From Acidobacteriota bacterium (GTDB lineage Bacteria > Acidobacteriota > Vicinamibacteria > Vicinamibacterales > UBA823), in the NCBI GenBank assembly GCA_002730525.1, contig PCAK01000027.1, positions 1 to 64,000 of the forward strand: a DNA stretch of 64,000 nt. The letters are read 5' to 3'. Below, one piece after another: positions 21,683 through 28,434 of the stretch (positions are counted from its first letter, which is position 1; the number at the start of each line of letters is the position of its first letter). The translations under genes were made by a program, and so were the position numbers. The notes under the pieces are model-generated. The model saw nothing but the letters and a program-made list of their open reading frames with translations. It was not told where the DNA came from and searched no databases.

Positions 21683-22651
21683 CTAAAGAAGTTCGGCCGC
21701 ATGCACGGCGGCGCCGAGTAGGCCGGGCTGCGGGTGGAGGATGACCGCCACCGGTACTGCGGCCAGCAGGTCGGTCATCGGCGGCTTGTTCCGGAACGCC
21801 TCGAGGAAGCCGCCAGACTCGAGGGCCGGCAGGATCTGGGGCGCGATGCCGCCGCCGACATAGATGCCGCCGGTTGCCGTCGACCTGAGCGCGAGGTTCC
21901 CGGCTTCGGCACCGTAGGCCGACACGAACATCTCGAGGGCCTCGACGCACGCGCGGCAGTCGCCGGCGAGCGCCGAGGTCGTGATCTGCGCGGGCACGTC
22001 GTCTGGATTCTCGGCGGTTCCGGCGACGCAGGGTTCGTCGTGGACGAAGCAGTACAGGTTGACGAGCCCAGATCCCGAGAGGACGTCCTCCAGCCGCACC
22101 CGTCCCAAACTCTCGGACAGGTCGCGGACGAAGTCGAGTTCTCGCGGGGTTCGGGCCGCGAAGTCGGCATGGCCGGCTTCGGAGGCCGCCGGGACGAAGT
22201 GTCCGTCCTGATTGTGGAGCAAGGCCTCCCCCAAGCCGGTGCCGGCGGCAATCAGCGCGGCGCTCCCCGACCCGAGCGGTTCACCTTCCTGCAGGGTGGC
22301 CAGTTCGTCCTGGCCGAGGGCCGAGACCGAGTACGCCATGGCCTCGAGGTCGTTCAGTAGGGCGATCCGGGCGATGCCGAACCGCGAACCGATCTCGGCG
22401 GCCTCGATCGTCCAGGGCACGTTCGTCAGCCGCGCCGTGCCTTCGAGCACGGGCCCGGCCACGCCGAAACAGGCGCTTTCGATCGGGCCGGTCTCGTTCG
22501 ACGGCGCGAGGAACTCGTCGAGCATGGCGGCCATGCCGTCATGGTCGAGAGAGGCGAACCGCGCGGTGCGGATCGGGAGCGGTCGATCCGGCTCTCGGCG
22601 GAACAGGCCGAGGCGTGTCGTGGTGCCGCCGACGTCGGCAGCGAGTAGCAT
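21683..22651 (-). CDS. glk: Glucokinase
   Basis: 322 residues of the Glk (PF02685) family, an actin-like ATPase that makes glucose 6-phosphate. LLAADVGGTTTRLGLF (2-17) is the phosphate-1 motif; ALLNDLEAMAYS carries the catalytic aspartate; AAGTGLGEALL is the phosphate-2/adenosine region; the EAGHADFA motif holds the sugar-binding glutamate and histidine; GGIYVGGGIAPQ is the C-terminal nucleotide site. ATG 22651 follows GAGGAG. It belongs to no visible operon; the next gene is divergent. Confidence 0.95.
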   Translation of the reverse strand: MLLAADVGGTTTRLGLFRREPDRPLPIRTARFASLDHDGMAAMLDEFLAPSNETGPIESACFGVAGPVLEGTARLTNVPWTIEAAEIGSRFGIARIALLNDLEAMAYSVSALGQDELATLQEGEPLGSGSAALIAAGTGLGEALLHNQDGHFVPAASEAGHADFAARTPRELDFVRDLSESLGRVRLEDVLSGSGLVNLYCFVHDEPCVAGTAENPDDVPAQITTSALAGDCRACVEALEMFVSAYGAEAGNLALRSTATGGIYVGGGIAPQILPALESGGFLEAFRNKPPMTDLLAAVPVAVILHPQPGLLGAAVHAAELL

Positions 22652-22876
22652 CACGTCGTTTCTCCTCGCGCTGCGGCATCTCGGCCGCGGCACACGGGGT
22701 CCTGTGTCGCATTGTGGTCGGATGCTGCTTGACTTTACAACCGTTCTCGTTCATCTTTCCCTCCGAACAACGGTCTTACGCACTGATCTGGAGCGCCAGT
22801 ATCCGATCCTGATGCGTCGTCTGCTTCACCGTTTCGCCACGTCACGCCTTCGACACACCTCGGTGGGGATCTCTCG

Positions 22877-24061
22877 GTGACACCATCGTCCTCACCCGCC
22901 GGCCGGCTCGACTCGGCGCTCTCGTTCGCCAATCAGGTCGTCGTGTTCAGTGGCCGCCTCGCGTCGCTCGGCCGCAAGGACGCGTTCTCGCTCGTCCAGC
23001 GGCTGGGCGGCGAAGCCGCCGACGAGGTGAGTTCGCGCACGACGATGCTCGTGATCGGTGCCGACGGGGCGGGTCGAGGAGCGAGCCGGTTGGCGATCGC
23101 GGATGCCTCGGCTCCCGGCGACAAGAGTCGCAAGCTGCAGCGGGCCGAGCAGGTCAACGCTAGAACACCGGGACAGGTCCACATCGTCAGCGAAGCAGAC
23201 TTCTGCGATCTGGGCGGGCTCCCCGCCCCAGAGGCGCCGGGGCACGAGTTGTACAGCGTGCGGGAGATCCGCGAACTGTATCCAGCGGTCCGCGACGATC
23301 ACCTGCGCTACCTGGAGAAGTGGCGCCTGATCCGGGTCGTGGCGAGGACCAACGCCAGCCGCTACTTCGAGTTTCCCGACCTGGCGGTCATCAAGCAGGT
23401 GCGCGCCGAACTGGATGAGGGCCGACCGTTTCGTGCGATCGTCCGGACCCTCGTCTCGCAGCGGGAAGGGCAACTCGCGTTCGACTTCCAGCCTGGCCGC
23501 AGCAGCCCCGCACATCCCGCCAAGGTCGTGGCGCTGCAGGTGCAGCCGAAACCTCGAACGGCCGACCTCGGGCAGGTGCAGCCGCCGCCGATGGACTGCC
23601 AGTCGAACCTGGCCGCGCGCTACTTCAGCGAGGGCGCGGGGCTGGACGAGGGCGACGTGGTCCAGCAGGAGCAGGCGATCGGCGCCTATCGACAGGCGCT
23701 GGTGCTCGATCCGACGCTGGTGCCGGCGCTGGTGAACCTAGCGAACCTGCACTACGCCCGCGACGAACTGGTCGAGGCGCAGGCGCTCTACGAGCGTGCG
23801 ATCAATCTCGAGCCGGAATGCTTCGAGGCCTACTTCAATCTCGGCAACATCCAGCACGATCTCGGCCGGTTCGGCGATGCGCGCGAGTGCTATCAGGCGG
23901 CGGTTCAGCTGAATCCCGGACACGCCGATACGCATTTCTACCTTGCCGTGACGCTGGAGAAGCTGGGCCGTTCGCAGGATGCGCGGCCGCACTGGCGGGC
24001 GTATCAGGAGCTGGCGCCGGAGGGGGAGTGGGTGGCGCTGGCGAAGGAATTCTCTGAGTAG
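22877..24061 (+). CDS. BRCT-MerR-like HTH-TPR fusion protein
   Basis: 394 residues with three kinds of module in one chain. Residues 20-112 read as a BRCT domain (VVVFSGRLASLGRKDAFSLV, then TTMLVIG), as at the C-terminus of NAD-dependent DNA ligase. Residues 125-195 resemble a MerR-type winged helix (LYSVREIRELYPAVRDDHLR, WRLIRVV, FPDLAVIKQV). A Pro-rich linker leads to at least three TPRs (about 242-385), for example PTLVPALVNLANLHYARDEL. GTG 22877 begins shortly before the BRCT domain; no ATG is available upstream in frame. The domains imply a DNA-bound scaffold responding to strand breaks or partner proteins; no such role is proven. It ends two bases before a strong hairpin. Confidence 0.75.
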   Translation: MTPSSSPAGRLDSALSFANQVVVFSGRLASLGRKDAFSLVQRLGGEAADEVSSRTTMLVIGADGAGRGASRLAIADASAPGDKSRKLQRAEQVNARTPGQVHIVSEADFCDLGGLPAPEAPGHELYSVREIRELYPAVRDDHLRYLEKWRLIRVVARTNASRYFEFPDLAVIKQVRAELDEGRPFRAIVRTLVSQREGQLAFDFQPGRSSPAHPAKVVALQVQPKPRTADLGQVQPPPMDCQSNLAARYFSEGAGLDEGDVVQQEQAIGAYRQALVLDPTLVPALVNLANLHYARDELVEAQALYERAINLEPECFEAYFNLGNIQHDLGRFGDARECYQAAVQLNPGHADTHFYLAVTLEKLGRSQDARPHWRAYQELAPEGEWVALAKEFSE

Positions 24062-24105: not shown

Positions 24106-24417
24106 TCACCCCTGCCAATCCTGGTCGGGCCGCTTTCGCGGCGCCCGCCGCGCCTTGAAGAACTTGCAGTCCGGGCACCAGGCTTCGGGGTTGAAGCCAC
24201 TCGTACCGGCGAACGGCTGCACGTCGCGGTGCGCGCAGTAGCTGACGCTGCCGCCATCGGGCGTCGTATGCCACCGACAGCTGCGAAACCGCTCAGCCGC
24301 TGGCGAGAGGGCAGTTGGTGGCGTGTCCCCGGGTGCCGCGTCGGTCGCCGCCGCCGCGCCGGAACCCTCGGGCGTGGGCGCGGGCGCGTCCGTCTCGGTG
24401 CGTGGATCGTCGCTCAT
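24106..24417 (-). CDS. Small Cys/His protein, probable zinc-binding
   Basis: 103 residues. The first half is acidic and Ala/Pro/Thr-rich and probably disordered. The second half holds a compact pattern, CRWH...YCAH...WCPDCKFFK (C47, H50, then C and H 11-14 residues on, then C-x2-C), which could bind one zinc or iron. It lies 44 bases downstream of infA on the same strand and may be its operon partner. No function is recognised. Confidence 0.6.
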   Translation of the reverse strand: MSDDPRTETDAPAPTPEGSGAAAATDAAPGDTPPTALSPAAERFRSCRWHTTPDGGSVSYCAHRDVQPFAGTSGFNPEAWCPDCKFFKARRAPRKRPDQDWQG

Positions 24418-27675: not shown

Positions 27676-28434
27676 GTGACGATGTTCGTGTACGCCGTCC
27701 TGATCGCCTTCCAGATCTGGGCCATCGTCGACTGTCTGCGCCAGCGGACACGGCTGCTCTGGGTGATGGCGGTGTTGCTGTTCGGGCCGTTCGGGGCGCT
27801 CGCCTACGTCGTGAGTGAGCTGCTGCGCGGACGCCGGTTCGGGCAGGCGCCGTCCGAGGCGCCGGTCGAGAGCGATCCCCGGATTGCCGAGTTCGAGGGG
27901 TTGCTGGCCGCGAACCCCGCGCCGGCGCTGTTCATCGAACTGGGCGATCTGCACGCGCAGCGAGGCGACCACCGGTCGGCGGCCGAGGCGTACGGCCGGT
28001 CGCTCGAGACCGATCCCGACAGCCTGTACGCGCGCTACCACCTCGGGCTCGAGTTCAAGGCCCAGGGCCGGAACACCGAGGCGGTCGAGGAGTTGAAGCA
28101 GGTCTTCGCCGCCGATCCGAAGTACGACTATCGCGCGGCCGCGGAGGCGCTCGCCGACGTCCTGCTCGCCGCCGGGCGGGACCGCGAGGCGCTCGACCAG
28201 TATGCCTCGGTCGCCGGCGCCTCCTCCCGGGCGCGCCCGAAGTTCTACTGGGGATGGCTGGTCGACAAGGCGGGCGACGCGGCCGCGGCCGCGCGGATCA
28301 TGCAAGAGATCGTCGATGAGGAAGAGTCGGTGCCCGACTACCTACGCTCGGGCGAGTCCCCGTGGATCGACCGCGCCCGCCGCTACCTCGACGGATGGCC
28401 CTCCGAGACCCTGCTCGCTCCCCAATCGAAGTGA
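27676..28434 (+). CDS. Two-helix membrane protein with TPRs
   Basis: 252 residues. Two hydrophobic helices (about 4-48) with the motif FGPFGALAYVV match the PLDc_N-type N-terminal anchor of bacterial membrane proteins. The rest (60-245) is a run of TPR motifs, for example ALFIELGDLHAQRGDHRSAAEAY and LYARYHLGLEFKAQGR. It is a cytoplasmic scaffold held at the membrane. The GTG at 27676 or the ATG at 27682 may start; both follow the upstream stop closely, so the pair is probably co-translated. Confidence 0.75.
   Translation: MTMFVYAVLIAFQIWAIVDCLRQRTRLLWVMAVLLFGPFGALAYVVSELLRGRRFGQAPSEAPVESDPRIAEFEGLLAANPAPALFIELGDLHAQRGDHRSAAEAYGRSLETDPDSLYARYHLGLEFKAQGRNTEAVEELKQVFAADPKYDYRAAAEALADVLLAAGRDREALDQYASVAGASSRARPKFYWGWLVDKAGDAAAAARIMQEIVDEEESVPDYLRSGESPWIDRARRYLDGWPSETLLAPQSK

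Follow-up and report, generated by a model that had tools for sequence, protein, structure and literature searches.

The gene at positions 22877 to 24061 of a 64,000-nucleotide stretch from an Acidobacteriota bacterium (contig PCAK01000027.1, order Vicinamibacterales; the whole stretch is referred to here as the window) raises the question of what a protein might do that carries a BRCT domain, a MerR-type helix-turn-helix and an array of tetratricopeptide repeats (TPRs). The initial annotation of this locus called the combination unfamiliar, and we found no description of it in the open-licence literature, nor one of BRCT with MerR, of MerR with TPR or of a link between MerR proteins and NHEJ. 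A survey of bacterial NHEJ (PMC7719229) leaves MerR and TPR unmentioned.

Architecture of the protein

The protein runs from an N-terminal BRCT domain through a MerR-type winged helix-turn-helix and a GQLAFDF element to 3-4 TPRs. The features of the gene are as follows.

22877..24061, plus strand: BRCT-MerR-TPR gene, 394 aa, GTG start
22925..23218, plus strand: BRCT domain, residues ~17-114; pocket S25, G26, R33, K86
23069-23125, plus strand: long BRCT loop, an insertion of about 20 residues (residues about 65-83)
23249..23461, plus strand: MerR-type winged helix-turn-helix, residues 125-195
23468..23488, plus strand: GQLAFDF element, residues 198-204
23489..23611, plus strand: linker, low-confidence in the model and probably flexible, residues 205-245, with conserved PAKVVAL
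23612..24058, plus strand: TPR array closed by a capping C-terminal helix, residues 246-394

When the single protein was compared with Pfam, TPR_2 was matched above the cut-off by tandem 34-residue repeats in three stretches (1.9e-23). BRCT (PF00533, 0.0046 at residues 17-77) and MerR_1 (0.0044 at residues 140-192) stayed under their gathering cut-offs, so that the window sequence alone is no proof of either domain. Their identity was settled by the Pfam matches among 45 aligned family members, of which 25 matched BRCT (best 3.5e-10), 22 matched MerR_1 (best 4.3e-7) and all 45 matched TPRs. The three domains that the initial annotation had proposed were thereby confirmed, and the boundaries it had drawn for them were all correct. 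AlphaFold2 predicted an H-H-E-H-H order for the MerR region with a pLDDT of about 80, and for the TPR region a model with a pLDDT of about 88 whose structural matches were TPR superhelices. Structure prediction, which had been suggested as a check on the first two domains, bore out the MerR region but gave no confident fold for the BRCT. The model of the latter, made from an eight-sequence alignment, has the correct element order (b1-a1-b2-b3-a2-b4-a3) at a mean pLDDT of only 57, and Foldseek returned no significant match for it in the PDB; both results are attributable to the shallow alignment. No MerR-type dimerisation coiled coil or effector domain was recognised with Pfam or AlphaFold2, and the helix-turn-helix is followed by a short linker and then the TPR array. 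All domains of the protein are under purifying selection, with dN/dS values against the nearest relative of 0.04-0.09 for the BRCT, 0.04 for the MerR region and 0.01 for the TPR region. Homologues of the gene were present in 56 of the 60 relatives examined, and we conclude that BRCT-MerR-TPR is a real, conserved and unusual architecture.

By profile comparison, the BRCT of this family is closest to the RFC1/LigA class. Its best match among PDB sequences was the human RFC1 BRCT (2k6g/2k7f, 2.9e-10), followed by LigA (2owo, 6.9e-10). With hhalign, the family profile also aligned to the BRCT of the window genome's own LigA over 74 columns (98.0%, 1.7e-13), and an unrelated control pair, glucokinase and the MerR profile, reached 0.3%. 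In the RFC1 pocket, Thr166, Gly167, Arg174 and Lys209 bind the 5' phosphate of DNA (PMC9359705), and the equivalent residues in the window protein are S25, G26, R33 and K86. Among relatives the Gly is invariant, 12 of 22 carry T or S in first place, and most retain the Lys; several members of the order retain the BRCT but lack the helix that bears the pocket Lys. Judged by this pocket, the BRCT most likely adds recognition of a 5' phosphate or a DNA end. The RFC1-type pocket, taken together with the occurrence of relatives in ku operons (see below), points towards DNA ends.

The GQLAFDF element drew our attention because it resembles clamp-binding motifs. The consensus for binding to the sliding clamp is QLxLF or QxxLxF. 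Across the 45 relatives the G and Q are invariant and the L nearly so; most members read QLx(F/L)DF, one family (L077, L079, L080) has QLxLF, and one relative outside the order (L160) reads exactly QLSLF. The protein might accordingly be a replication-clamp adaptor in which GQLxFDF/GQLxLF ties the DNA contacts of the MerR and BRCT domains to the beta clamp, and the unstructured state of the segment in the AlphaFold2 model would agree with this. However, a structural role appears as likely, since the motif ends a putative beta-rich segment in the Ku-linked relatives (WxxxSGQLLLDF) and in the window family precedes what may be a strand paired with it, PAKVVAL. Moreover, the DinB tails of the same genomes, which were checked for a clamp-type motif, end in LPFD rather than in a GQLxFDF type and lend no support to the sliding-clamp reading. 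We regard a clamp adaptor as very unlikely.

Neighbourhood and promoter

The gene is monocistronic, as the initial annotation had stated: a glucokinase gene (glk) lies divergently upstream of it, and infA and a small Cys-rich ORF are convergent on its downstream side. The GTG start given in that annotation is also kept in the nearest relatives. The flanking features are listed below.

21683..22693, minus strand: divergent glucokinase (PF02685), start probably 22651
22729..22757, plus strand: conserved promoter-like element TTGACW-N17-CATCTT, whose spacer contains a conserved TTCTC
24106..24417, minus strand: convergent small Cys-rich ORF, about 103 aa, CRW...C.HRDV...AWCPDC.FFK, putative zinc binding

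Glucokinase is the divergent neighbour in 36 of the 48 fetched loci, and the small Cys-rich ORF, which has no Pfam match, is present in 34 of them. Across the loci of the order, infA and an acyl-synthetase/acyltransferase gene are often found downstream. A few kb further downstream in the window (27676-28434, plus strand), a second TPR protein is encoded, with a phospholipase-D-nuclease N-terminal (PLDc_N) motif.

The promoter element, which recurs in more than one family, was clear in 10 of the 36 intergenic regions between glk and the gene, compared with none in shuffled sequences, and weaker forms were seen in several more. The copy in the window has no second exact match in the genome. In relatives from which glk is gone, the element stays upstream of the BRCT-MerR-TPR gene, to which it belongs. 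Its spacer is 17 bp long, and it is not clearly palindromic. In some relatives (e.g. L064) it lies 9 bases before the start codon, which suggests a leaderless mRNA. As an alternative, the conserved intergenic element might encode a leader peptide read from the glk strand (ATG..GAG..GTCAA, reversed). We rejected this candidate since the match covers no more than about 10 codons and the element stays with the BRCT-MerR-TPR gene in the absence of glk.

MerR regulators bind conserved promoter spacers, which classically measure 19-20 bp. The gene is probably autoregulated through its own promoter, and the whole protein might be an ordinary local transcription factor, with the MerR domain on its own (perhaps also the glk) promoter, the TPRs recruiting or sensing a partner and the BRCT serving as a protein contact. 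The frequency of the divergent glucokinase, a conserved promoter with a conserved spacer and a single exact genomic match, and the predicted MerR-type fold all fit such a regulator. By analogy, the HTH-TPR regulators of the RRNPPA group and yeast Rap1 would work comparably, and the Rap1 BRCT and Gcr1 have been tied to glycolytic genes (PMC10386641). Nevertheless, the block of glk, the gene, infA and the acyl synthetase is syntenic as a whole, which may make the link to glk a passive one, and the promoter stays with the BRCT-MerR-TPR gene where glk has gone. The 17-bp spacer and the lack of a clear palindrome also depart from the classical MerR pattern, and a local role leaves the ku operons of the relatives unexplained. 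A local regulator is possible, then, albeit somewhat improbable.

Ku-linked relatives and history of the BRCT

To describe the distribution of the family we used 396 Acidobacteriota genomes, 42 of which belong to the window's order. The gene was present in 39 of these 42 as a single copy, and a single-sequence search of all 396 genomes found essentially no family member outside the order. A profile of the MerR-to-GQL region reached other classes weakly (1e-8 to 1e-3). The family's nearest relatives outside the order are represented by 19 fetched loci, which encode MerR-TPR proteins that have no BRCT, most of them with a similar GQ-x-L/F-x-F after the helix-turn-helix. In 15 of these 19 Acidobacteriota loci the gene directly before the MerR-TPR gene, in the same orientation, encodes Ku, which caps the ends of broken DNA, and LigD is encoded nearby in 8; Pfam matches were examined on one example each (Ku 1.4e-42, LigD_N 1.6e-39). 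In two related Acidobacteriota loci (L147, L157) the pair is followed by a gene that, judged by eye, encodes a DtxR/MntR-like regulator.

When one Ku-linked MerR-TPR protein was compared with plasmids by tblastn, its N-terminal part matched 33 Burkholderiales records. In the plasmid regions inspected, Ku is followed by MerR-TPR in 15 of 15, with a 4-bp overlap in 7 and ligD often nearby; the hosts are Paraburkholderia, Caballeronia, Burkholderia, Cupriavidus and Variovorax. These proteins are annotated as 'tetratricopeptide repeat protein' or 'MerR family transcriptional regulator'.

The MerR region of the window family aligned to that of the Ku-linked proteins in hhalign with 97.6% and 3.4e-12, a value to be read against the general likeness of MerR domains. 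Searching in reverse ranked the window family best in 21 of 38 genomes of the order, though not in the window's own genome, and within the window's own family it was mostly not ranked first. Descent of the window family from Ku-linked MerR-TPR proteins is likely rather than proven, with no more than moderate support from these comparisons. Neither Ku nor LigD was found near the BRCT-MerR-TPR gene in any fetched locus of the order, and none of 30 Ku loci in the order has a MerR-TPR gene beside it. The window genome itself has no Ku and no LigD. A sister species of the same genus has both Ku and LigD_N, so that NHEJ varies even between species within a genus.

The N-terminal BRCT region is kept in 27 of 46 members from the order and missing in 19. 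Since it is absent from the outgroup relatives, it was probably gained once and then lost repeatedly, a direction that the tree leaves unfixed. The best tree requires nine changes of state, at least four of which are forced by well-supported branches. Being missing or degenerate in many members of the order, the domain is evidently dispensable, and its presence showed no significant association with that of Ku (Fisher p 0.12-0.54). One could read this pattern as that of a decaying add-on with no essential role, the MerR-TPR core doing the work, and both the repeated state changes and the truncation of the domain in several further members speak for it. Against this, dN/dS of the BRCT region in the window's family is 0.04-0.11, a purifying selection comparable to that on MerR, and this family has retained the pocket positions as well as E..FC, a motif in the last strand/helix. 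We find the reading of a decaying BRCT distinctly doubtful.

Proposed function and comparison with known systems

The reading that we put forward, tentatively, is that of a DNA-binding TPR adaptor or regulator of DNA-end or DNA-damage metabolism whose gene moved out of the ku operon and acquired a BRCT of the RFC1/LigA class within the order. It builds on the observed domains, single-copy conservation, selection and promoter conservation, and on the Ku linkage of the relatives. From these we infer the binding activities, the descent from Ku-linked proteins and the function in the window genome. The MerR-type winged helix would hold double-stranded DNA and the groove of the TPRs an extended peptide of a partner, with the GQLxFDF segment and the flexible linker connecting the two parts. 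The MerR-TPR core is of the same kind as the proteins co-expressed with Ku in other bacteria, so that its ancestral role probably lay within end joining or in overseeing it. In the window's order, the gene would have left ku and settled beside glucokinase under its own, probably self-regulated promoter, and the N-terminal BRCT gained there could partly stand in for Ku. The joint role that the initial annotation had suggested (recognition of DNA breaks or phosphates, DNA binding and a platform for proteins) fits both an RFC1/LigA-class BRCT and relatives in ku operons. Two observations count against a DNA-end reading: Ku and LigD are both absent from the window genome, and the BRCT does not follow the presence of Ku. 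The data agree with end sensing that needs no Ku and also with plain regulation of two promoters, the gene's own and that of glk.

Bacterial end joining has been described as a two-protein system of Ku and LigD (e.g. PMC5124664). A bolder proposal, which we consider unlikely, is that MerR-TPR is an unrecognised third end-joining component, expressed together with Ku in two or more phyla, and that its BRCT-fused form is a Ku-independent sensor of DNA ends, linking the recognition of breaks to DNA binding and to the recruitment of partners even where Ku and LigD have been lost. It is the Ku linkage of the BRCT-less relatives that raises the interest of the family. A third gene consistently placed after ku, both in Acidobacteriota and on Burkholderiales plasmids, would be a new end-joining part to test.

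Of the known systems, the MerR-TPR proteins of ku operons (e.g. WP_114158406.1, ABO59781.1) share with the window family the MerR-type helix-turn-helix, GQ-x-L/F-x-F, the C-terminal TPRs and a similar core length. They differ in having no BRCT, in lying directly downstream of Ku, often with an overlap, and in an extra segment between the helix-turn-helix and GQ. The single BRCTs of RFC1 and LigA are the closest sequence matches and have the T/S-G, R and K pocket positions in common with the window BRCT, whereas the latter is N-terminal to a MerR helix-turn-helix and TPRs instead of part of a clamp loader or ligase, carries the ~20-residue loop and is degenerate in some lineages. MerR regulators (PF13411) resemble the window gene in the winged helix-turn-helix, the divergent gene and the spacer-conserved promoter; in place of a recognised coiled-coil dimerisation helix or ligand domain, however, the window protein has a TPR array, and its promoter spacer is 17 bp. 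The RRNPPA regulators (PlcR/ComR/Rgg) likewise have a DNA-binding helix-turn-helix followed by a TPR array, a likeness of architecture, but theirs is XRE-type, and they occur in Firmicutes and respond to peptide pheromones. Yeast Rap1, finally, is a eukaryotic protein with a Myb-type DNA-binding domain, yet it too binds specific DNA sequences and has a BRCT at its N terminus; by this analogy, the BRCT-fused form would be a bacterial example of the pairing of BRCT and DNA binding that is familiar from Rap1 and from repair in eukaryotes.
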